Notes under the pieces: model-generated
What the model was told of the DNA's origin: nothing
Seen by the model: the letters and a program-made list of their open reading frames with translations, nothing else
The model's database searches: none
Virus record (IMG/VR): IMGVR_UViG_3300032288_000505
Coordinates: 1 to 27,272 of that record
Length of the DNA: 27,272 bases
DNA from: a virus
Strand: one strand, 5' to 3'
Shown here: positions 15,912-27,272 of the stretch, one piece after another
Layout: each line of letters begins with the position of its first letter
Position numbering within the stretch: position 1 is the first letter of the stretch
Made by a program: the position numbers and the translations under genes

Positions 15912-16325
15912 ATGGATTCCCTTGTAGTACGCGCTTTAAATGAAAACGACTACCACGATACTTTGGTTGGATGGTGGGAGCAATGGGGATGGGTTCCTCC
16001 ATCGTTAGACTTTCTTCCTGACAATGGGAAGAGTGGTATAATGATTATGGACGGTGACACACCTGTTTGCGCCGGATTCATGTACCTAACCAATTCAAAA
16101 GCGGCTTGGGTTGATTGGATTATTTCTAATAAGAAGTACATCAATAAGCCCAAAAGAAAGGAAGCTATTGAGCTTTTAATTTCTTCGCTTACAGGAATAT
16201 GCAAATCAGCGGGGTCAAAATATTGTTATGCTTTGATAAAGCATCCGGGCCTAATAAACACCTACAAGAAATTAGGATACACGCAAGGAGATTCGTATAC
16301 AAGTGAGATGATAAAAACTCTATAA
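15912..16325 (+). CDS. GNAT-fold protein in T7 gp13 position
   Basis: A 137-residue protein with the order of a GNAT (acyl-CoA N-acyltransferase) fold. It has an N-terminal MDSLVVRALNENDY strand-helix, GIMIMDGDTPVCAGFMYL in the central strands, a basic helix KPKRKEAIELLI, and the C-terminal NTYKKLGYTQGD typical of the last GNAT helix-strand. The classical acetyl-CoA loop (Q/R-x-x-G-x-G/A) is not evident, so catalysis is doubtful. T7 gp13 has nearly the same size and a similar basic helix and end, and it also lies between the nozzle gene and the internal core genes. The protein may therefore be a gp13-type morphogenesis protein rather than a modifying enzyme. It is followed one base later by the next gene. 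Confidence 0.68.
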   Translation: MDSLVVRALNENDYHDTLVGWWEQWGWVPPSLDFLPDNGKSGIMIMDGDTPVCAGFMYLTNSKAAWVDWIISNKKYINKPKRKEAIELLISSLTGICKSAGSKYCYALIKHPGLINTYKKLGYTQGDSYTSEMIKTL

Positions 16326-16326
16326 A

Positions 16327-17130
16327 ATGGCAGTAACAACAGCAATAATAGTTAGCACAGCAGCCACAGCGGCATCAGCAGGAATGTCTTTTAGCCAAGC
16401 TAATAAGCAAAAGAAGCTTCAGAGGGAAGCTGAAAGAGAGGCTCAAAACGCTCTAGCCAAAGCGGAGAAAAGGCTTGACGTAAACTTCTATGACCGATTG
16501 CCTATATTCAAAGAAATTTATGAGAACCAACAAAACGCCTTGCTTTCAGCGGGTGCTCAAGCTATTCAAGCAGGAGTAGAAGGAGAGTCAAGGGGAGTTG
16601 CTCCAACAGCGGGCCGTGTCCTCATGGCTCAAAATGAGGCTCAGGCAGACGTGAGAGAGGCTCAGGGTCAGGAGCTTTCTGATTTAGCTAGACTCAGTGC
16701 TACTGAGGAGTCAAGGCTTGGTGATATAGGCGTACAATTAAATCTAGAAAAAGTTGCAGGCGCTCAGATGGCGGCAAGAGACGCTCAAGAAGCTAGAGCT
16801 GCAGCTATTGCTCAAGGGTTTGAGAGTGTTCAAGGACTTGCTCAAACAGCTATTCAAGCCGCTCCTTTGTACACTAGAAATATAGGCGCTCAAAAATCTG
16901 CTTTATCCCAAATGCAATTTACTCCTGAGGAATTTGCTAAATTTGAAGCTCTTGGTGGTAAGCCACTGAAGGAAGGAGAGTTTTCATCATTAGATTTTCA
17001 AGGAATCGGAGATATGAACAATTCTCAATATCGACAATTTAGGAATAACTTAACTTCTGAGCAAAGACAGATGTTGTTTCAAAATCAACAATACTTGCAG
17101 AACTACAATCCGTTTAACCCATTCCAATAA
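16327..17130 (+). CDS. Probable internal virion protein (T7 gp14-like position)
   Basis: A 267-residue protein that starts with an Ala/Thr/Ile-rich stretch (residues 1-22, MAVTTAIIVSTAATAASAGM) able to insert into or lie on a membrane. A long Ala/Gln/Glu helical region follows (ANKQKKLQREAEREAQNALA, then coiled-coil-like up to about residue 180). The C-terminus is Gln/Asn-rich (YLQNYNPFNPFQ). Composition and place, after the gp13-like gene and before two larger genes, fit the small ejection protein that forms an outer-membrane channel during podovirus infection. Sequence identity to T7 gp14 is not visible by eye, so this is synteny plus composition. It ends six bases before the next start. 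Confidence 0.58.
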   Translation: MAVTTAIIVSTAATAASAGMSFSQANKQKKLQREAEREAQNALAKAEKRLDVNFYDRLPIFKEIYENQQNALLSAGAQAIQAGVEGESRGVAPTAGRVLMAQNEAQADVREAQGQELSDLARLSATEESRLGDIGVQLNLEKVAGAQMAARDAQEARAAAIAQGFESVQGLAQTAIQAAPLYTRNIGAQKSALSQMQFTPEEFAKFEALGGKPLKEGEFSSLDFQGIGDMNNSQYRQFRNNLTSEQRQMLFQNQQYLQNYNPFNPFQ

Positions 17131-17136
17131 TAGCAG

Positions 17137-19014
17137 ATGGCAACATATTTTAAATACGCTGAACGCGAGGCCGACAGTTATGTGAATTGGGCCGAGATAG
17201 GAAAGAACATGTCCGACATGCTCAAAGAAGAGACTCGGATACGTGAAGAAAAGAAAGCCGCAATAGATGAAGCTTCCCGCCAATACGGTGAACAGCTTGC
17301 TAACGCACCACAAGGAGACCACAAAGGGATGAATCAGTGGGCATTGGAGTATGGCTCTGATGCTTCACAAGCTAGATTGATGCAAGACAAGCTATTGAAG
17401 TCGGGTCAGCTAAAGCTGAAGGACTATATGGTGATGCGTCAAAACATAACTGACGGAACCAATCAAGCGTTTGACTTGATGAAGGAATACCAAACAGAGT
17501 ATACCAATAAGATAGCACGCATGAAGGCTGATAAATCTCAAGACCTTGAGCCTTGGCTTATGGGCGAGGCCGAGGGATTTGCTAACTTCTCAAAAACAAA
17601 ACTATATATAAATCCGACAGACGGAACGGTAAGCGTTGCAAAAACAATAAAGGGTCCTGATGGTGTTATAAACATGAGTGATAACCCAAATGATTTCACA
17701 ACTGTAAACGCATTGCGTAATAGAATGAAAGGGCACTTTGATAAGTTTGACGTTAAATCAAACGTTGGTGCTTATGTCCAAGGATTAGGTGAGGAGATAA
17801 GCGTTCTCACTGACATTAAAAATAAATATAAGCGAGGTACAGTTACTGAGATTCTCGACATAACAGAGAGAAGTTATTTGAGCGAAGATGAGAAGGGAGT
17901 ATTGATAGGCTTTGAGGATGCGGAAAAAAAGATGCTTCTAGGCATGATGTCTAATGATTATCACACAAGTTCTATCCTTACCAATGAGTTGAATTTTGAG
18001 AAAGAAACAGGGAAAGAATACACGTACACTTGGAATTCCGACCCAACATTTCTTAAGAACAATCCGGAACTTATTCTTTTAAAGAACGACCCAAACTCAG
18101 ACAACCCTGTGCCTCAATTTAGCGAGGCTCAGAAAGAGGCGGCGTTTATATATCTCAGAACTCAAGCGCGACTCATGTACGACAAGACTGAGAAGGTGAC
18201 TGTAATTGGCGCTTCTGAAAAAGCGCCGGAACAACAGTGGCAATACTTAGCAAGATTAGATAAGCAAAGGAAAGAGTCTGTATTCCAATCTTGGCAAGAC
18301 CTTTACACAGGAGATGACGCAAGAGTACAGGCGGCTACTGATGCAATCTTGGGATTGCCTGAGTCAAAGGAAGAGGGCCTTATAGGTATTAGTAGAGGTA
18401 AGTACATCGACCCTAAAACAAACAAAGAGGCTTATGGAGTTACGTTTAAATACGCTGACCCAAATAAAAATAGGTCTATACCATTTACTGACGCCAATTT
18501 AAATATTAAGTCGTCGAATGATTGGTTTAAATCGGGAACTGAGGTGTTTGGAGAGATTACTGATTCTGATTTGAATAGATTCGGAAAAGGTGACTTTGGT
18601 ACTGCGGACTACGAGAAGAGCATTGAATCTAGTAGAGACTACAAGGGAACTGCTGCTGCTGCTACAGGCCCTAGTTCTAAAGATTTATGGAACGCTGCTG
18701 TTGATGCAAATAAAGACATGATAGAAGGATATATTCTTTCTTCAGCAGAAGAGCTATCTGTCACTAAGATGGCTGAGATACTTGAAGGCTCAGGCTTTTC
18801 TGTTGAGGAGTCGGGAGTGACAAACAATCTCGTTATAACTGCACCCGACAACGTCACTAAAATAGAGGTCGGAACAAACGAAGGAGACGTAGATGAACGG
18901 CGCTCGGATGCGACTATGATTATGAATTTTTTGAAAGCTAATATGTCAACGACAGCGGCTGACGAGTGGAATAAGTCAGGTGGTGGTGTTGGCGGAAAGT
19001 ATAATGATAAGTAA
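17137..19014 (+). CDS. Probable internal virion protein (T7 gp15-like position)
   Basis: A 625-residue, mostly helical, soluble protein. The N-terminal 60 residues are charged and coiled-coil-like (NWAEIGKNMSDMLKEETRIR). Residues about 70-160 remain helical with aromatic contacts, and the middle is mixed with DNPVPQFSEAQKEAAFIYLR. The C-terminal part has a small alpha/beta unit (SVTKMAEILEGSGFSVEESG) and ends with a Gly-rich WNKSGGGVGGKYNDK. No enzymatic motif is evident. Its size and place between a gp14-like gene and a giant gene fit the second ejection protein of a T7-type core (T7 gp15 is about 750 residues). A plain tail or cargo protein is the main alternative. Confidence 0.55.
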   Translation: MATYFKYAEREADSYVNWAEIGKNMSDMLKEETRIREEKKAAIDEASRQYGEQLANAPQGDHKGMNQWALEYGSDASQARLMQDKLLKSGQLKLKDYMVMRQNITDGTNQAFDLMKEYQTEYTNKIARMKADKSQDLEPWLMGEAEGFANFSKTKLYINPTDGTVSVAKTIKGPDGVINMSDNPNDFTTVNALRNRMKGHFDKFDVKSNVGAYVQGLGEEISVLTDIKNKYKRGTVTEILDITERSYLSEDEKGVLIGFEDAEKKMLLGMMSNDYHTSSILTNELNFEKETGKEYTYTWNSDPTFLKNNPELILLKNDPNSDNPVPQFSEAQKEAAFIYLRTQARLMYDKTEKVTVIGASEKAPEQQWQYLARLDKQRKESVFQSWQDLYTGDDARVQAATDAILGLPESKEEGLIGISRGKYIDPKTNKEAYGVTFKYADPNKNRSIPFTDANLNIKSSNDWFKSGTEVFGEITDSDLNRFGKGDFGTADYEKSIESSRDYKGTAAAATGPSSKDLWNAAVDANKDMIEGYILSSAEELSVTKMAEILEGSGFSVEESGVTNNLVITAPDNVTKIEVGTNEGDVDERRSDATMIMNFLKANMSTTAADEWNKSGGGVGGKYNDK

Positions 19015-19035: not shown

Positions 19036-22000
19036 ATGAATGAAGAAGCAATTAAAGATGCCTATAATCTTTTTGTAGGTACAGGATATAAAAAATCTTA
19101 CGAAGATTTTAAGCAACTCATGCTTTCAAATCCTGAGGCATTAAACGACGCTTACAATCTTTTCGTTGGTACGGGATACAGAAAAGACATTAATGCTTTT
19201 AAAACCCTAATGGGGGTCGGTGGGGCTGAGGCTGAGCCACAAATGCAAGAGCAGGCTCAACCACAGATGCAGATGCCGGCTCAGCAACAAATGCCGGCTC
19301 AGCAAGAATTAAAAAAAAAAGAAGAAACCGTTACTACGGGATTGTCTTCGGCAGGTTCTTCTTCGGCTTCTCGACAGCCGGAGAAGTTTGACTTTAGCGG
19401 AATAACTCCGCCGCAGGATGAGAATCAAAAGCTAGGCATAAACCCAAAGATTGACTTTGCTAAAATAGCTCAGACAAGAGCTGAGAAAGAAGCGGCTACT
19501 CCTGAGTTCTATAAGTCTTCACTAGACATCATAACTCCTGACTTAATAAATAGCGAGGAAGAATTTGTTGTGCCTAAAATGAACTATCAGTTTGGCCCAA
19601 TGGGATTCAGTTTTGAGGAGTCAGGAGCGACGGGTGATTGGATGATTGCTACTGCTCCTAATGGGCAGAAGATGGAGTTTTCTCTCGACCCTATCTTCGG
19701 GGCTGAGGCTGAGGCTAAAAAACTCCGTCAATTTATTGATGACAACACGGAAGTAACAGGGCTTAAGTCTTTAGAAAAACAATACTCAGAGCAGAATAAA
19801 AGATTTGCTAATGACGAGGAGAGAGATGCGGAAATTAAAAAGCTAAACGATAATGTTACTGTTCTTAAAAACGACATCACATCATTCTTATCAGAAAAGA
19901 AAAAGCTAGACGAGGAGAAGGCTGCTATTGATGCTGTTCCATTAAAAGACAGAAACACCCCTGAGTTCAAGCAAAAGTCTGCTAACTATTTTCAAAAAGA
20001 AAGTCTATTAATTGCAAAGCAACAACAGCTTGCTGCACGTGAGTCCAACATTACACTTGACGCCAAAAATCTAGACCAATCAGTTGGTCGGTATGTGGGA
20101 ATGAAAGGGCAGCAAGGTACAATGGGAGGCGCTCTAATTGACAACCTCTTGGGAGGTGTAGGGCGAATGGCTGCAGGACAAGTGAGCGCATTTATTGACG
20201 CTATGTTTTCAGAATACAGCCCATTAGGTGTAGGCGAAGATGTTGAGGCATCTCTTACCGACAAAAAGGCTACAGGAAATCCGGTCGAGGACGTCAAATC
20301 AGGGAGCATTGCCATATCTAATGCCGCTAGAATAAATGAAATTTACGATGAGGCTGTTGCAGAGTCAAAGAAGAGGGGCGACAAGTTTGTTGTAGTTCCT
20401 ATAGGAACTCCTCAACCTATCCCAATGCCCAAGGCCGGGCAAACCGAAAAGGATTGGTATAATAGCTTGACTGACGAGCAAAAGGATTCTATTAATGCAT
20501 TGCCAAACGATGATTTAAGAAAGGAATTTAAAAGAAATCTACTCCCATCAATAAGGGTTGGAACTGAGATTGTAATGGGAGACCCTAACACTACGGTTGA
20601 GTTTTCTGATTTAAAAAAACAAGGATTTTGGGGAGGAGCTATACTTGGCGTCGCGCAGTCATTGCCGGCAATGGTCGGCGGAAATACTACAATGGGATGG
20701 GCGCAGAGAACCGCTCAAATGTATGCTCAAGTTACAGACCATGTGTACGAGGAGATGTCAAAGAACCCTGAGTTTGATAAAATATCGGAGAATGAAAAGC
20801 TATCTGTTATAGCTCCAATAGGAATTACATCTGCAATCCTAGAGTCAATAGGTCTTAGGAACGTGATAGCTAACAAAGGAATGATGAACCGAATCATCCT
20901 AGGCGCTATGGGGAAGGCAGGAGCCACTACCACTGCCAAGACATTTGGAGAGCTTGTTAAAAATGAGGTCGACAGCATGCTTGCTCGTGGTCTTATCACC
21001 GTGGGCGGAGCGGCTCTTGCTGAGGGTGAGACCGGATTTCTACAACAGGTTTCTGAGTATGCTTTAAAAGATATGTACAACACGGCGAAGGGAAAGGATA
21101 TGTTCCAAACTCCTGAGTTCCTTTCTGCTGAATATATAAAAGACGTAGCTATTGCCGGAGCTCAAGAGGCTGTCGGTGGCTTTGTGCTTGGGGTTCCTTC
21201 CGCTGTTTCTGCAGCTTATTCTAAGAAGGGATTCCTATCTATGGACGACAAGCAATTTGATTTCTTTAGGGCTGCAGCAAACGATAGCAACATAGAGAAG
21301 GCTTATGTCGTGAGGCTAAAGCAATTGGCTTCTACCGGAGACATGACAATGGCAGAAGCCAAGGAGTCGCTGAACAATTACAGAAACTCAGTTGGCTTGT
21401 ACCGCTCTATTCCTGAAGGGCTATCAACTCAAGATGCCAAAGAAGCAATGAACTTGCTCAAGGAAAAGAAGGACTTACAACAGCAGATACAAGGCAAGGA
21501 TAGCTCGTTGGTTAAACGTCAGAACAATCGTATCAATGAGATTGACGCAGAGCTTGATGCGATTGCAAATAGACCCGCCGCACAACCTACTGCCGCGCCT
21601 ACTACAGGAGCTCCGGGAAATGCAATTCAAGTATTGACGGACGAGGAAGAGGAAAGAAGGCTTAAGCTTGAGGAGGCTGTTGCAAAAGCTATTAGGACTG
21701 CGCCTGAAGGTATTTCACCATTGGCTGTGTCTATTGGTGGTGAGCTTGTTGCATTTGAAGACGCTCAAAAAGAACTAGACGCCTTAAATGAAAGGATGAA
21801 CGCACCTGCTGCCGCACAGGCAGCGCCTGAAACCGTTTCCGTACTATCCACTCCTGAGACCACTGCAGCCGCATTAGAGCTGCTTCCAACCGAGGAGAGC
21901 ACGAACATTACCTTCATGCAAGAAGATGGCACAGAGATGCCTGTCGTTGGTAATGAGAGAATGTTAGCCGAGATGTTCCATCAGGCGCAATCAACCCCTG

Positions 22001-25000
22001 AAGACCAAAGGACTCAGGCGCAACAAGATGCTATAGACGCAGTGACCGTGTCTTTGAAGACACAGATTGATGAAGAGCAAAGACAAGCTCAACAACAACA
22101 ACAAGAGCAAGAGCAAGAACAACCTCAACCACAAAGACAAGCCCCGACACAAGGAAAAGTTTTTGGAGTTGTAGATGACAATCTTGTTGAGATGTCTGAT
22201 AGTTTTTTTGAGGGACTAAACGATAATGAGCCTTATGAGCTTACAGTAAACTCTATAGACCAAGTCCCACCGAGATTCCGTTTTTCTCAATACTTAAGCG
22301 AAGGAGTTGCGGATGGGAAAAGAAAAAAAATCTTTGGCCTACCCATTGGGAAGAAAGGACAAGAAAAGGTTTTTAAATTAAACCTTTATGGCAGTGAGAT
22401 AAAAGATTTTAAAGCTGAGTTTATTGCTTCAATGGGTGACAAAATGGGCACAAATAAGGCTGAGGTCTTTGCTAATACTGCACGCTCATTGGCTACTATA
22501 TTTCCTAACTTAAAGATTAAAAATCTTAAGTCATTGGAGGAGATGAAAGAGTATGCGATTCAAAGATTTGGCACTTCGTTTTCAAGTCAGATTCTTGGCG
22601 GCGAGGGAGGTATGATTATCTACGACTTGAATAATAAGCCTATTGAGATATTGATTAACGACTCAGTGTCTGACGCTACCACTCTTCCGCACGAAGCTTG
22701 GCATGCAATATTAATCAAGGCATTTGGTGACAATCAAGTATTGTTTAATGAGTTCAGAGATAGCGTAAGACAATCTCTTATTGACAATGGATTCAATGAA
22801 ATTGCAAAACAACTTGATGAATTTTCAGAATCAGAAGCGTATAAGCAATCAGGCAATCAAGGTGAAGAGTGGCTTGTCCAACTTGGAGGATTACTTACTG
22901 CAGCGGGAATCACAACTGACAATCTAACCCCAAAAGCAAAGACACTTCTTGAGGAGATAAAGTCTTTGTTTAATGATATAGCAATAGATATTTTAGGGCG
23001 GCCAATGTTCTTAGAGGACGCTAGGCCGGAGGACGTATTGAATTTCATGGTGACTATCTCTGAGCGTATGTCTAAGGGACAAGACATATCAATGTTCTTT
23101 AGAGATGTTGAAGCCCAACAAGCAGCTAGTCCAAATAGAGTAAGCCGTCAGGTCGATGCCTTCCATGGGAGCCCTCATAACTTTGGTAAGTTTACAACTG
23201 AAGCAATAGGAACAGGAGAAGGCAATCAAGCCTTTGGATGGGGACTGTATTTTACAGACATCAAAAGCATAGCGGAGACTTATGCAAAAATGTTAAGCGA
23301 CACGTATTATGTAGTAGATGGGAATGAGGTTGGTTTATACACTAATGTAAGAGATAAGGGACAATTTTATTTTGCAACTTTAGCAAGCATTTACGACAAC
23401 GGATATGATACAATTGTACGCAGACTGTCAACACCCGGACAATTTTATTCAGAGGCAGCAGAGAAAGAAATGCTGACGTATATTGATGAGTTAAAGGGGA
23501 AAAAAATAACCAAAAGAAGTACGGGGCAATTATACGAAGTATCTCTTCACGATGGTAAGACTCCTGACCAATACACTTGGTTAGAATGGGATAAAAAACC
23601 AAATAAAGAGCAGGTAAACAAGTTGTTTTCTAAATTGACTCAAGAACAATTAGATAAAGGGTTTTATTATGGCCTTGCTCCTGACGCTACTAATGGAACA
23701 TTATATAGAGGTCTTTCCAATGCGTTAGGAAGTGCAAAACAAGCGTCACTATTTTTGCTTGAAAATGGCATTGACGGTGTTAAGTACCCTGCTGAAAGTA
23801 TTGCTCGTGGAGCTACATCAGAAAATGCAAGAGGGTTTAACTATGTGGTATTCGATGAGAACGCTGTCACTATAAAAAACAAAGCTAGTTTTCAAAAGCC
23901 GAAAGCGGAAGCAGCTACTCTTCAAGAGACTGCTCCTAAAACGTCTTCTCTAAAAGACATTGACGTTAAGCTTGTCCGCACTCTTAGCCGTGCAGGAAGC
24001 AGAGTTTCGAAAGGCTTGGCTATCTACGCAAGAAACAAACGGAAGATTGTAGAAGAAGCACCGGAACTTTCACTTGCTTATGTAAAAGAAAATGCTCCGG
24101 ATGTATTTATCAGCAATGCCAATCTTATTGCTCAGTATCCAATCGTCAGAGGAGTTAAAGCATTCAACGAGATAAAAACTATTGAGCAAGCTCAAGAAGT
24201 TTACGATATATTTTCTCGTCAGATTGCAGATAACTTAGAGTATCTGATGGACAACTTTAGACAAGACCTAAGAGAGATTGCAACACTGTGGTATGATGGA
24301 GCAAATATATTGGCCCAAAACTTTGGTAAAAAGTATGGTATCACAACCGAACAAGCTGCAGGTATTATAGCTTCACTATCTCCTCAAAAAGATTGGTATC
24401 AGAATGTTCGTCTTGCCGAAATGGTAATGATGGCATTTAAAGATAACCCCGTTATGAGCCAAGAGATGGTTGACTATCAGAGAGGAATCATTAATATCGG
24501 CTTGGAAGGCAAGCAGAAGAAAATAAACAAGGCTAAGGCAGCATACAAGAATAGCCGGTCAAAGGCTAATGCTAACAAGTTAAAAAAACTAATAGCTAAG
24601 TATGATAATGCCGTTAAAAAAAGCGATATAGTTTTGCAAAATCTTGCCGGCTTAATAGGAACGAAGATGAATGACGCTCCTAATTATGCTAAGCCATATT
24701 ACGTCCGAACATATAACGAGGTAAACACCACTAAAGATTACGACATTTTAAGTCCCGACGGTAAGGTAATTGGAATAGCTAAAAAGAAAGACGGCTCTAA
24801 CGCTCAAGTCGCTTGGGGTTCATATACTGAAATTGGTAAAGCAGTTGCAATTTATCTTGATGGAAGCCAAGGGAATATCACAAGAACTCTTGGAGAGATG
24901 CACAAAATTCGTAACTTCTACAATAATATCATCGACCCAATGTCGGCTGATAAAGACGTGACAATGGACACCCATGCGGTAGCCGCTGCGTTATTACTTC

Positions 25001-27272
25001 CTTTATCGGGAAAATCTAAACAAGTTGAAGCTAATTTTGGAACCGGTACATCAAACTCAGCCCCACTTGGAATCAAAGGGTTGTACTATGCATTTGCCGA
25101 AGGATATAATTTAGCCGCAGAAGAAACGGGCTTATTGCCTCGTCAAGTACAGAGCATTACTTGGGAAGCAGTAAGAGGATTGTTCACTGATGATTTCAAA
25201 AGAGATAAGAAAAAGGTTGAGGCCATCAATCAAATAGTAGAAAATTACGTAAACAAAAAAATCACATTAGATGAATCAAGAAATCAAATCACAGAGTATG
25301 CAGGAGGAATCAAAACCCCAAGTTGGGCAGGAGGACCTCTTCAAGAAGGGGCTACAGATAATGTTGAAGGAGAAGCTGTCGGACGAAGAAGTAGAGGAGC
25401 TAAATCTGATACTGTCGGGACTAAGCGAGGAGGACCAAGAGTAAGCAAACAAAATCAAGGGGAGGGCGGAACTCTTCAAGAAGTTCAAAAGATTGCTCGA
25501 CGATACAACATGAATACTAACGGCTTCTCTCCCGCACAGGTGAATGAGTCCGCCATGAATAGAGAGCTTAATGTCTTTGGTTATTCAGCTAAGAGAGCTA
25601 AGCCTGATGCTAATGGAAGACCGGGTGGAGTGTATATCCTAGGACCAAACGGAAGATTCTTCAATCCATTCAAGGCTAAGTTCTCCCGGATTAATCTAGG
25701 AGGAGGAAATCTTCAGGAGAATGTAGACACAATTCCGGGATACGCACGTATGCTTGATGTTGCCAATGGAATTATTGAGAAGTCTATAAAGCGTGGCCTA
25801 GATAAGGCAAAGACTATGGATAACGTCATGAGGTATGTTACCCAATCAAAGGTCTATGAGGTAGCAAATGACTCTCAACGTGAGCAATTATTTCGTAATG
25901 TAGAGACTGAGTTTGGCAAGAGACAAAAAGCTTCGCCATCACTTAGCCGAGATTTGTTTATGGGGCTAGGTCGTCTAGTGCTTGGGGATATAGCTGACGT
26001 TAAAAGAATCACGATGTCAGAGAAGCAGTTGCTTAAGAAACAAATTCGGGACCTAGCGCGAGGAGCAAGACAATCAAAGATTGCCTTTATGAAAGCTGAA
26101 GCTGAGTTAGCTAAGCAAGTAAACGAATTAGTATTGTCGGGCAAAATAAAATCCAAACAGGTAGCAAGCATTATCAGAAGATTTGCGGCAGTCAATGTAT
26201 TCAATCAAGATTCTGTAGACAAGTTCGTTGACTATATGATTAATGTATTTGAAGATGCTGACTACGACCAAAAGATAGAGACTGCTCGCAGGAAATTAAA
26301 AACGGCTAAGGTAAATATCAGGACTAAAATAGGTATTGCTGAATCAGCAGGACCTCTGTTGTCCAAACTATTCTCAATCAATCCAAATCTAATCCCTGAT
26401 TCAGTATTAGATAAATACCTTGCGTTGGTAGATACATTTGGAGAGAACGCTGCAGTATTAAAATTGGAAGAGGCAAACAGGGTTATCTCTACCGTGAATG
26501 AAATACTCGACGCAGTAAACGAGGAGGAGTCATTAGTTGAAGAGTTGGCTATCCTGTTCGACAACTATGAGGACAAGGTAATTGATGAAGATGGAAAGAT
26601 TGATTTTGCTGAGACTCTAATTAAGATGTTAGAAGAGGGAGAGATTACAGAGGCTGAGGTGAAGTTGATGAAGAAACACAAAAGCCTTATTATTCCAAGG
26701 GTTGAGAAGGCTAAAATGACTGAGGAGGAAATTGAGGAAGAAAAAAGAAAATTGATTTTGGCAATTAGAGGGCTCGACATTAACGCCGAGAATCTTCCAA
26801 CAAGAGACGAAAGGAACTTGGCAAAAGAGCTCAAAGACCTGCTAGTTCCTTCGCTTTTAAATCAACTTAGTATTTCTCAGCTAGAAAACGTAATCAAATT
26901 AATAGACAACATTAACAACGGGTATCTTCCGAGTTATGCTGAGCTTACTGTTGAGAGACTTGATTCATTTAAAAAATCAGAACCATTAATAGAGTCAATC
27001 AAAACAGGTGTTGCCTTAAAATTTGAGAAGGCGTATGCAAGGATTAAAAAGTTTTTGACTCGCTCTAAAAATTCGGCTGATTTTGTAATGGTCGAGCGTG
27101 GTCCATTATATAATATGGAGCAGTTGTTTGGAGACTTCAAAACAAAAAACATATTCAACTCTGTATTTGCAGGACTTGCAAAGGGACAAGCCTTTTTTGA
27201 TTCTGAGATGAACAAAATCAATAAGACGTTGGACGCGGCTAGACAAAAAGTTGCTTCGTCTTATAAGAATAA
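19036..27272 (+). CDS. Giant polyvalent internal virion / ejected protein (truncated by window end)
   Basis: The frame is open for 2745 codons and leaves the window without a stop. In-frame stops lie just upstream (19021, 19030), so ATG 19036 is the first start. Order by residue: two 30-residue repeats (4-63); Gln/Met/Pro linker; coiled coil (about 240-350); Gly/Ala-rich hydrophobic segments (363-395, 531-726); Gln/Glu-rich linker (about 1014-1040); zinc-peptidase-like domain with HEAWH (1219-1223); ADP-ribosyltransferase-like domain (1375-1615); uncharacterised phage domain with SLSPQKDW (1780) and TMDTHAV (1976); Gly/Arg-rich linker; helical C-terminal part (2226 onward). The place after two core-type genes matches T7 gp16, but it is over twice as long. 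It is probably packaged and injected, with enzymatic domains acting on the host early. LQE recurs at four linkers, possibly for processing. Confidence 0.85.
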   Translation, partial: MNEEAIKDAYNLFVGTGYKKSYEDFKQLMLSNPEALNDAYNLFVGTGYRKDINAFKTLMGVGGAEAEPQMQEQAQPQMQMPAQQQMPAQQELKKKEETVTTGLSSAGSSSASRQPEKFDFSGITPPQDENQKLGINPKIDFAKIAQTRAEKEAATPEFYKSSLDIITPDLINSEEEFVVPKMNYQFGPMGFSFEESGATGDWMIATAPNGQKMEFSLDPIFGAEAEAKKLRQFIDDNTEVTGLKSLEKQYSEQNKRFANDEERDAEIKKLNDNVTVLKNDITSFLSEKKKLDEEKAAIDAVPLKDRNTPEFKQKSANYFQKESLLIAKQQQLAARESNITLDAKNLDQSVGRYVGMKGQQGTMGGALIDNLLGGVGRMAAGQVSAFIDAMFSEYSPLGVGEDVEASLTDKKATGNPVEDVKSGSIAISNAARINEIYDEAVAESKKRGDKFVVVPIGTPQPIPMPKAGQTEKDWYNSLTDEQKDSINALPNDDLRKEFKRNLLPSIRVGTEIVMGDPNTTVEFSDLKKQGFWGGAILGVAQSLPAMVGGNTTMGWAQRTAQMYAQVTDHVYEEMSKNPEFDKISENEKLSVIAPIGITSAILESIGLRNVIANKGMMNRIILGAMGKAGATTTAKTFGELVKNEVDSMLARGLITVGGAALAEGETGFLQQVSEYALKDMYNTAKGKDMFQTPEFLSAEYIKDVAIAGAQEAVGGFVLGVPSAVSAAYSKKGFLSMDDKQFDFFRAAANDSNIEKAYVVRLKQLASTGDMTMAEAKESLNNYRNSVGLYRSIPEGLSTQDAKEAMNLLKEKKDLQQQIQGKDSSLVKRQNNRINEIDAELDAIANRPAAQPTAAPTTGAPGNAIQVLTDEEEERRLKLEEAVAKAIRTAPEGISPLAVSIGGELVAFEDAQKELDALNERMNAPAAAQAAPETVSVLSTPETTAAALELLPTEESTNITFMQEDGTEMPVVGNERMLAEMFHQAQSTPEDQRTQAQQDAIDAVTVSLKTQIDEEQRQAQQQQQEQEQEQPQPQRQAPTQGKVFGVVDDNLVEMSDSFFEGLNDNEPYELTVNSIDQVPPRFRFSQYLSEGVADGKRKKIFGLPIGKKGQEKVFKLNLYGSEIKDFKAEFIASMGDKMGTNKAEVFANTARSLATIFPNLKIKNLKSLEEMKEYAIQRFGTSFSSQILGGEGGMIIYDLNNKPIEILINDSVSDATTLPHEAWHAILIKAFGDNQVLFNEFRDSVRQSLIDNGFNEIAKQLDEFSESEAYKQSGNQGEEWLVQLGGLLTAAGITTDNLTPKAKTLLEEIKSLFNDIAIDILGRPMFLEDARPEDVLNFMVTISERMSKGQDISMFFRDVEAQQAASPNRVSRQVDAFHGSPHNFGKFTTEAIGTGEGNQAFGWGLYFTDIKSIAETYAKMLSDTYYVVDGNEVGLYTNVRDKGQFYFATLASIYDNGYDTIVRRLSTPGQFYSEAAEKEMLTYIDELKGKKITKRSTGQLYEVSLHDGKTPDQYTWLEWDKKPNKEQVNKLFSKLTQEQLDKGFYYGLAPDATNGTLYRGLSNALGSAKQASLFLLENGIDGVKYPAESIARGATSENARGFNYVVFDENAVTIKNKASFQKPKAEAATLQETAPKTSSLKDIDVKLVRTLSRAGSRVSKGLAIYARNKRKIVEEAPELSLAYVKENAPDVFISNANLIAQYPIVRGVKAFNEIKTIEQAQEVYDIFSRQIADNLEYLMDNFRQDLREIATLWYDGANILAQNFGKKYGITTEQAAGIIASLSPQKDWYQNVRLAEMVMMAFKDNPVMSQEMVDYQRGIINIGLEGKQKKINKAKAAYKNSRSKANANKLKKLIAKYDNAVKKSDIVLQNLAGLIGTKMNDAPNYAKPYYVRTYNEVNTTKDYDILSPDGKVIGIAKKKDGSNAQVAWGSYTEIGKAVAIYLDGSQGNITRTLGEMHKIRNFYNNIIDPMSADKDVTMDTHAVAAALLLPLSGKSKQVEANFGTGTSNSAPLGIKGLYYAFAEGYNLAAEETGLLPRQVQSITWEAVRGLFTDDFKRDKKKVEAINQIVENYVNKKITLDESRNQITEYAGGIKTPSWAGGPLQEGATDNVEGEAVGRRSRGAKSDTVGTKRGGPRVSKQNQGEGGTLQEVQKIARRYNMNTNGFSPAQVNESAMNRELNVFGYSAKRAKPDANGRPGGVYILGPNGRFFNPFKAKFSRINLGGGNLQENVDTIPGYARMLDVANGIIEKSIKRGLDKAKTMDNVMRYVTQSKVYEVANDSQREQLFRNVETEFGKRQKASPSLSRDLFMGLGRLVLGDIADVKRITMSEKQLLKKQIRDLARGARQSKIAFMKAEAELAKQVNELVLSGKIKSKQVASIIRRFAAVNVFNQDSVDKFVDYMINVFEDADYDQKIETARRKLKTAKVNIRTKIGIAESAGPLLSKLFSINPNLIPDSVLDKYLALVDTFGENAAVLKLEEANRVISTVNEILDAVNEEESLVEELAILFDNYEDKVIDEDGKIDFAETLIKMLEEGEITEAEVKLMKKHKSLIIPRVEKAKMTEEEIEEEKRKLILAIRGLDINAENLPTRDERNLAKELKDLLVPSLLNQLSISQLENVIKLIDNINNGYLPSYAELTVERLDSFKKSEPLIESIKTGVALKFEKAYARIKKFLTRSKNSADFVMVERGPLYNMEQLFGDFKTKNIFNSVFAGLAKGQAFFDSEMNKINKTLDAARQKVASSYKN
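19045..19224 (+). repeat. Two 30-residue tandem repeats at N-terminus of giant protein
   Basis: Residues 4-33 and 34-63 repeat the pattern DAYNLFVGTGYKKSYEDFK / DAYNLFVGTGYRKDINAFK followed by LM. The DNA has diverged at synonymous sites, so protein-level selection keeps the repeat. Similar helical units occur at the N-termini of other large phage virion proteins and may bind a partner in the virion. Confidence 0.85.
19273..19305 (+). repeat. 18-base tandem repeat in linker (MPAQQQ)
   Basis: The 15-base unit ATGCCGGCTCAGCAA occurs at 19273-19287 and again at 19291-19305 (period 18), coding for MPAQQ twice in a Gln/Met/Pro linker. It is identical at DNA level, so it is likely a recent slippage duplication. 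Confidence 0.85.
20626..21213 (+). other. Hydrophobic Gly/Ala-rich segment of giant protein
   Basis: Residues 531-726 contain several membrane-prone or amphipathic helices (FWGGAILGVAQSLPAMVGG, IAPIGITSAILESIGL, then ALAEGETGFLQQVSEY and VAIAGAQEAVGGFVLGV). The pattern of Gly/Ala helices with an E-x-FLQQ motif resembles a segment common in very large phage ejection proteins. It may help cross or anchor in the host envelope; that role is inference. Confidence 0.5.
22153..22935 (+). other. Zinc-metallopeptidase-like domain of giant protein
   Basis: Roughly residues 1040-1300. The motif LPHEAWHAIL places an HExxH zinc site at residues 1219-1223 (22690-22704). A Glu pair at 1277-1278 (GEEWLVQLGG) is a candidate third zinc ligand, as in gluzincin-like peptidases. 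A preceding strand, IEILINDS, fits the edge strand of the fold. Such peptidases are known in phage polyvalent proteins. It could process its own polypeptide or cut host proteins; neither is shown. Confidence 0.68.
23158..23880 (+). other. ADP-ribosyltransferase-like domain of giant protein
   Basis: Residues about 1375-1615. FHGSPHNFGKF, then GTGEGNQAFGWGLYFTD, is the signature of the ADP-ribosyltransferase-like domains found in phage polyvalent proteins. A plausible catalytic set is His1377 (HGS), Tyr1405 (GLYFT) and Glu1608 (FDENAV). LLENGIDGVKYPAES and FNYVVFDENAVTI form the expected C-terminal strands. It would transfer ADP-ribose from NAD to a host target on entry; the target is unknown. 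Confidence 0.75.
23953..25290 (+). other. Uncharacterised phage domain (SLSPQKDW / TMDTHAV type)
   Basis: Residues about 1640-2085. The helical stretch with GITTEQAAGIIASLSPQKDW and the later TMDTHAVAAALLLP, plus LLPRQVQSITWEAVRG, recall a family of unknown function in phage proteins with an ALSPxxxWxxN motif (I believe DUF7178-like). A roughly 80-residue unit (around YDILSPDGKVIGIAKKKDG) appears inserted between the two motifs. The conserved Asp and His are candidate active residues, but no reaction is known. Confidence 0.5.
25271..25444 (+). CDS. Possible overlapping small gene inside giant ORF linker
   Basis: A second frame (+1 relative to the giant gene) is open for 57 codons from ATG 25271 to TAA 25442-25444. 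The predicted protein starts MNQEIKSQSMQEES and ends LNLILSGLSEEDQE. It reads like a natural amphipathic, acidic helical peptide (DLFKKGLQIMLKEKLSDEE in the middle). In the same place the giant protein's own frame gives an unusual Gly/Arg/Ser-rich linker. Against it: third codon positions of the giant frame are A/T-rich like the rest of the gene (34 of 40 codons in 25321-25440), while those of this frame are mostly G/C in 25322-25381. There is no clear leader. It may be a true overlapping gene, a relic, or chance. Confidence 0.3.
   Translation: MNQEIKSQSMQEESKPQVGQEDLFKKGLQIMLKEKLSDEEVEELNLILSGLSEEDQE
25711..27270 (+). other. Helical C-terminal region of giant protein
   Basis: From residue 2226 to the window end the protein is almost wholly helical and charged, with no enzymatic motif. 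The stretch MSEKQLLKKQIRDLARGARQ, then SGKIKSKQVASIIRRF and DSVDKFVDYMINVFEDADYD, looks like a recurrent associated module of large phage virion proteins. It is probably structural, for packing in the capsid core or contacting portal and DNA. Confidence 0.5.

Follow-up and report, generated by a model that had tools for sequence, protein, structure and literature searches.

The window analysed here (the whole stretch of 27,272 nucleotides, positions 1 to 27,272 of the IMG/VR record IMGVR_UViG_3300032288_000505) comes from a record that is a virus fragment, and its terminase, portal and head genes match those of Bacteroidota podoviruses. The portal protein shows 77% identity to that of MW202828, 49% to Maribacter phage Panino, 47% to Flavobacterium elemo phages and 34% to Cellulophaga phi38:1; the host bacteria of the virus are probably aquatic. 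The genes and domains considered below, including the parts of the giant protein that we refer to as the chassis (i.e., the regions kept among relatives), are as follows:

16327-17130, plus strand: 267-aa gene in the gp14-like place, a candidate small internal virion protein
17137-19014, plus strand: 625-aa gene in the gp15-like place, assigned by position and size only
19036-27270, plus strand: giant gene, ATG start, 2745 codons, open at the window edge
19036-19218, plus strand: N-terminal tandem repeat (residues 1-61; two units of approx. 29-35 aa, DAYNLFVGTGY..), chassis
19423-21309, plus strand: N-terminal and helical chassis regions (residues 130-758), their order kept in relatives
22414-23124, plus strand: zincin-like peptidase (residues 1127-1363) with HEAWH and E1278 as candidate third ligand
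23149-23895, plus strand: ADP-ribosyltransferase (ART) domain (residues 1372-1620) with H1377, Y1405 and D1607; absent in the relative L002
24139-25350, plus strand: DUF7178 domain (residues 1702-2105; Pfam 9.8e-25) with K1957 and D1978 as candidate catalytic residues
25753-27270, plus strand: start of the C-terminal chassis (residues 2240-2745), which runs past the window

As the initial annotation had stated, the giant protein occupies a single frame of at least 2745 residues, with no stop codon between the ATG at 19036 and the end of the window. A complete version of the gene, encoding 3292 aa, is present in L002, a virus contig of 58.8 kb; the two proteins are 94% identical in the C-terminal half and 77% identical in the N-terminal half, and they are collinear end to end except for approx. 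257 residues missing from L002, which represent the entire ART. The five motifs that had been picked out from the sequence of the window all lie where they had been placed, i.e., HEAWH (residues 1219-1223, positions 22690-22704), HGSPH (residues 1377-1381), GWGLYFT (residues 1401-1407), SLSPQKDW (residues 1780-1787) and TMDTHAV (residues 1976-1982), and are conserved beyond chance in relatives. All measured regions of the protein are under purifying selection, with dN/dS values of 0.07 to 0.21 across the regions compared between the window and L002 and of 0.13 for the ART compared to its closest relative (dS was near saturation in several comparisons of both kinds). The N-terminal repeat recurs in 38 ORFs of related loci, likewise at the N-terminus or close to it (start at residue 2 to 25). 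The proposal of membrane-prone helices holds in a weak form, as two segments (residues 588-608 and 704-724), both mildly hydrophobic, pass a permissive hydrophobicity cut. At the other end, the C-terminal chassis region is shared with the elemo structural protein (E 1e-15, in a comparison made with L002). In two relatives the giant gene is broken within this C-terminal region, into two ORFs in one (L019:2-8444) and several in the other (L025:8033-15814); these splits may be frameshifts, assembly errors or natural fission.

The giant gene is the last and largest member of a cluster of internal-protein genes arranged as small, middle and largest, which is also the order of gp14, gp15 and gp16 in T7 (PMC8954989). 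Its placement in the slot of T7 gp16 thus agrees with size and position; a match to an internal virion protein family, and a weak one (0.0017), was obtained for the small gene only, which also matches a PHROG virion structural protein (2.7e-10), and the 625-aa gene matches a PHROG family of unknown function (9e-24). Among the Pfam and PHROG matches of the giant protein there was no gp16 or internal virion protein family and, as homology to gp16 was not detectable, the likeness to gp16 is to be read as "works like" only. The proteins in the same slot of the elemo phages and phi38:1 are annotated as "structural protein", in the case of phi38:1 explicitly by similarity; such labels are annotation and therefore suggest, by analogy, that the giant protein is present in the virion.

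A 137-aa gene (15912-16325) lies between the tail and internal protein genes of the window and matches a PHROG family of unknown function (1.6e-38); its counterpart in MW202828 is labelled N-terminal acetyltransferase. MW202828 is the nearest named relative by portal, and its slot protein (L003:741-12320; 3859 aa) has only approx. the first 250 residues in common with the window protein, the remainder being other payload with two HEFGH motifs. The slot protein of Panino (L004:35462-40951) is labelled "tRNA methyltransferase", with no Pfam family found in the protein, and that of an elemo phage (L006:2064-13145) carries DUF3293 (1e-12) directly ahead of an HExxH domain. No recognised enzyme domain was found in the slot proteins of Panino and phi38:1.

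A comparison of 64 non-redundant relatives (a biased sample, as the loci had been selected for a peptidase, an ART or DUF7178) revealed a fixed order of N-terminal repeats, N-terminal and helical regions, peptidase and C-terminal region. The peptidase came after the helical region in each of 29 cases, and ART or DUF7178 came after the peptidase in each of 9. Between the peptidase and the C-terminus lies a variable segment that holds ART, DUF7178, LPD23 or a methyltransferase-like domain, or in which no domain was recognised; within this biased sample, ART and DUF7178 were found together on the chassis in the window only. Close relatives, with portals 83-95% identical to that of the window where the contig includes the portal, differ in this central segment: L098 (in which the portal was not found and which is possibly a fragment) and L100 carry ART and lack DUF7178, and L019 carries DUF7178. 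As L002 lacks the ART despite a portal 95% identical to that of the window, the ART is exchangeable, optional cargo. We also considered the ART as the defining element of the giant protein and rejected this on account of its absence from L002. The idea of a multidomain protein of the polyvalent type is thereby supported, with zincin motif, ART and DUF7178 in one ORF and an architecture that varies among relatives; judged by these alignments, the giant protein is a constant chassis with a predicted built-in protease and exchangeable putative enzymes.

Combinations of the same domains also occur elsewhere. Three other giant phage ORFs join DUF7178 with ART-PolyVal (L026:6362-16423, with four stretches of ART-PolyVal, L053:4253-12028 and L061:4202-12550), and those of L053 and L061 additionally carry an inorganic pyrophosphatase domain and, at the N-terminus, a peptidoglycan hydrolase. 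In two Rhodobacteraceae phages (L011:3001-5859 and L013:1693-4200) a methyltransferase-like stretch precedes DUF7178, a call based on the record label in L011 and on inspection of the sequence in L013.

The predicted zinc site proved to be highly conserved, as H1219, E1220, H1223 and the downstream E1278 were present in all 51 non-redundant relatives, which upholds the assignment of a zincin-like peptidase. Matches to IrrE-type zinc peptidases were weak (E 0.07 and 0.3), though in register, a match to DUF6782 was also weak, and the window peptidase itself scores below the Pfam cut-off. Since the peptidase is always found just before the variable segment and is as constant as the chassis, we group it with the chassis and favor a function in self-processing, a role that has been proposed for the zincins of polyvalent proteins (PMC5512222); such self-processing seems likelier than a part in host takeover. 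A peptidase directed against the host would be in keeping with the frequency of zincins among effectors and with the several possible roles discussed for polyvalent zincins (PMC5512222), but a true payload would not be expected to be the most constant element beside the chassis, always ahead of the variable segment, and we regard this alternative as unlikely.

The ART-like domain is of the polyvalent H-Y-D type, the pattern given for polyvalent ARTs (PMC5512222). H1377, G1378, Y1405 and F1406 are conserved in all 69 non-redundant relatives and D1607 in 86% of them. In a mixed alignment of peptidase and ART sequences, 50 of the 85 rows matched Pfam ART-PolyVal (best 6e-11) and 15 matched PARP, and the window ART alone falls below the Pfam cut-off for ART-PolyVal and Tox-ART-HYD2 (19-22 bits vs. 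31.2). The alignments thus make a strong case that the ART-like domain that had been proposed belongs to the ART-PolyVal family. A HMMER search of PDB sequences with the ART profile yielded nothing useful, and the sole PADLOC match was a weak one of LmuC to the ART.

The domain with SLSPQKDW and TMDTHAV had been described as uncharacterised. Its function is indeed unnamed in Pfam, but the domain itself is already a Pfam family, DUF7178 (PF23802), which scores 88 bits in the window against a curated cut-off of 27 and is widespread in phages. Hundreds of viral contigs carry it, in at least 567 stretches, and it is part of 58 non-redundant giant ORFs of at least 600 aa (median 1902 aa). Stand-alone genes of approx. 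200 aa occur in cyanophages, Siovirus, mycobacteriophages and Streptomyces phages, and depositors label some of them "glycosylase" or "N-glycosylase/DNA lyase"; in Siovirus P12053L and T7-like cyanophages, such genes are positioned early (L341:304-894, L337:292-915 and L335:307-909). None of 42 long relatives departs from K1957 or D1978, and the equivalent Lys and Asp are likewise invariant in 13 compact ones; overall, 87 of 87 sequences show a K...F...D pattern, with a Lys-Asp spacing of 17-22 in 86 of them.

As this order of motifs resembles that of HhH-GPD enzymes, we compared DUF7178 with HhH-GPD families. HMMER, Pfam and PDB sequence searches showed no link between the two, and hhalign comparisons with Nth, MutY and AlkA were not significant. 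When compared to OGG2 chains from the PDB (fetched by an approximate OGG2-like query, the real chains then being compared), the 13 compact DUF7178 sequences reached a score of 30 (P = 6e-4), and a set of 45 DUF7178 sequences (compact members) reached 41.9 (86%, P = 4.7e-6), as compared to 17 or less in 40 column-shuffled controls and to scores of 31-44 among accepted HhH-GPD families in the same set-up. Both the catalytic Asp (IDxH) and the last Trp helix align in register. The profile of the long, window-type form alone did not reach OGG2 in hhalign, and pooling long and compact forms in one alignment (Q4) gave a weaker profile; the long form is tied to the compact one by the Pfam DUF7178 assignment and the common invariant residues. 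AlphaFold models of the long and compact forms were confident and all-helical (pLDDT 94 and 89, respectively). Foldseek searches of the PDB with both models gave no significant match (E 0.4 and worse); for the compact form, glycosylases were found at ranks 1, 2, 8 and 9, with E-values of 0.4-1.6 that are below significance (1xg7, which we take to be AGOG, Pab-AGOG and a human MutY homologue), and for the long form there was no glycosylase among the 50 matches listed.

Overall, these data make it quite likely that DUF7178 is a HhH-GPD DNA glycosylase, and lyase chemistry by Lys1957 and Asp1978 is predicted with slightly less assurance. A different all-helical domain that acts on or binds DNA, in which the Lys/Asp pattern arose by chance, would account for the non-significant Foldseek results, the lack of a HMMER link to HhH-GPD and the unmatched Nth, MutY and AlkA. 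We consider it improbable, as the OGG2 comparison equals the scores between accepted families, lies far above the shuffled controls and places the catalytic Asp in register, as AGOG and MutY entries appear in the Foldseek top ten for the compact form (not significantly), and as depositors arrived at their labels independently.

Taken together, the giant protein is probably the largest ejection-type internal virion protein of a podovirus whose relatives include the flavobacterial phages Elemovirus, Panino and phi38:1, and a polyvalent chassis with exchangeable enzymes. Judging from gene order, it would be packaged with the gp14- and gp15-like proteins. By analogy with the ejection models for T7 gp16 (PMC8954989) and crassvirus cargo (PMC10172136), it would then exit by way of the tail in a partly unfolded state, either before the DNA or together with it, and its N-terminal and helical parts may help to span the envelope. 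The chassis zincin, given its constant place and conservation, could cut the polypeptide, either within the head or once entry has taken place, and so free the payload. The freed ART, for which the family assignment is strong, would use NAD+ to modify proteins of the host, in the manner of T4 Alt. The freed DUF7178, with a moderate assignment, would act as a bifunctional HhH-GPD glycosylase, in which Lys1957 attacks the sugar C1' with assistance from Asp1978, removing a base and nicking the DNA.

The DNA acted upon could be host DNA and its modified bases, or damage on the entering genome. We slightly prefer a host-directed role, because some T7-like and Siovirus phages have a stand-alone DUF7178 gene close to their left (early) end and because DUF7178 keeps company with ART and, in L053 and L061, with peptidoglycan hydrolases. 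In its broadest form, the hypothesis would be that many lytic phages eject a DUF7178 base-excision enzyme, from an unrecognised branch of HhH-GPD, as an exchangeable payload released by the zincin, which in the first minutes of infection introduces abasic sites and nicks into the DNA of the host, or excises bases that are damaged or host-modified; we put this forward tentatively, as a possibility that is rather unlikely.

A payload that protects the phage, with the glycosylase repairing oxidised or UV-damaged bases of the entering genome and the ART blocking host defence, and with no takeover of the host, appears similarly doubtful. Surface-water phages carry damaged DNA, and the profile match is to OGG2, i.e., 8-oxoguanine enzymes; host enzymes, however, could perform this repair equally well, and DUF7178 accompanies ART and muralytic domains and has its stand-alone copies among left-end genes. 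A purely structural role for the giant protein, as a core or scaffold of the virion whose enzyme-like domains are decayed or structural, is very unlikely, as the catalytic residues are invariant and the domains are under purifying selection, even if slot proteins in relatives bear structural labels and those of Panino and phi38:1 are without a recognised enzyme domain.

With this prediction, a DNA glycosylase is added to those activities that are likely to be delivered by virions, and DUF7178, a very widespread "unknown" phage family, gains a testable function. The class of polyvalent proteins (PMC5512222) and virion-delivered ARTs are both already known. The polyvalent protein paper (PMC5512222) makes no use of the word "glycosylase", and DUF7178 was not mentioned in the literature searched (open-licence papers; an earlier description elsewhere is possible); as far as could be found, a glycosylase component of such giant proteins is undescribed. 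The natural series of close relatives with and without the ART, at 95% portal identity, also separates delivery chassis from payload and lets one ask what each payload gives the phage.

Among known systems, polyvalent proteins (PMC5512222) are likewise very large multidomain phage proteins that combine a zincin, an ART and more in variable architectures and are predicted to be injected; the window protein differs by its DUF7178 domain (a predicted DNA glycosylase/lyase) and by the constant chassis that flanks the payload in its lineage. T4 Alt resembles the window ART in concept, as an ART delivered with the virion (for the window ART, delivery is proposed), but Alt is a free protein of the R-S-E class and the window ART is of the H-Y-D class (PMC5512222). 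Like the OGG2/AGOG glycosylase-lyases (PDB 3fhf, 3n0u, 3fhg and 9o00), DUF7178 has the Asp in register, the same last Trp helix and a comparable distance from Lys to Asp (17-22 residues vs. 18 in OGG2); unlike them, it has a shorter hairpin, a Lys one residue nearer the conserved Phe, a large insertion in the long form and no significant fold-search match. Crassvirus cargo also comprises very large proteins in virions of Bacteroidota podoviruses (PMC10172136), as is proposed for the window protein; these cargo proteins are RNA polymerase-related and appear to be of other families. T7 gp16, finally, is more than two times smaller and shows no detectable sequence homology to the giant protein, in which no transglycosylase domain was found, but both are the largest and last members of a small-middle-large cluster, mainly helical and with weakly hydrophobic segments (PMC8954989).
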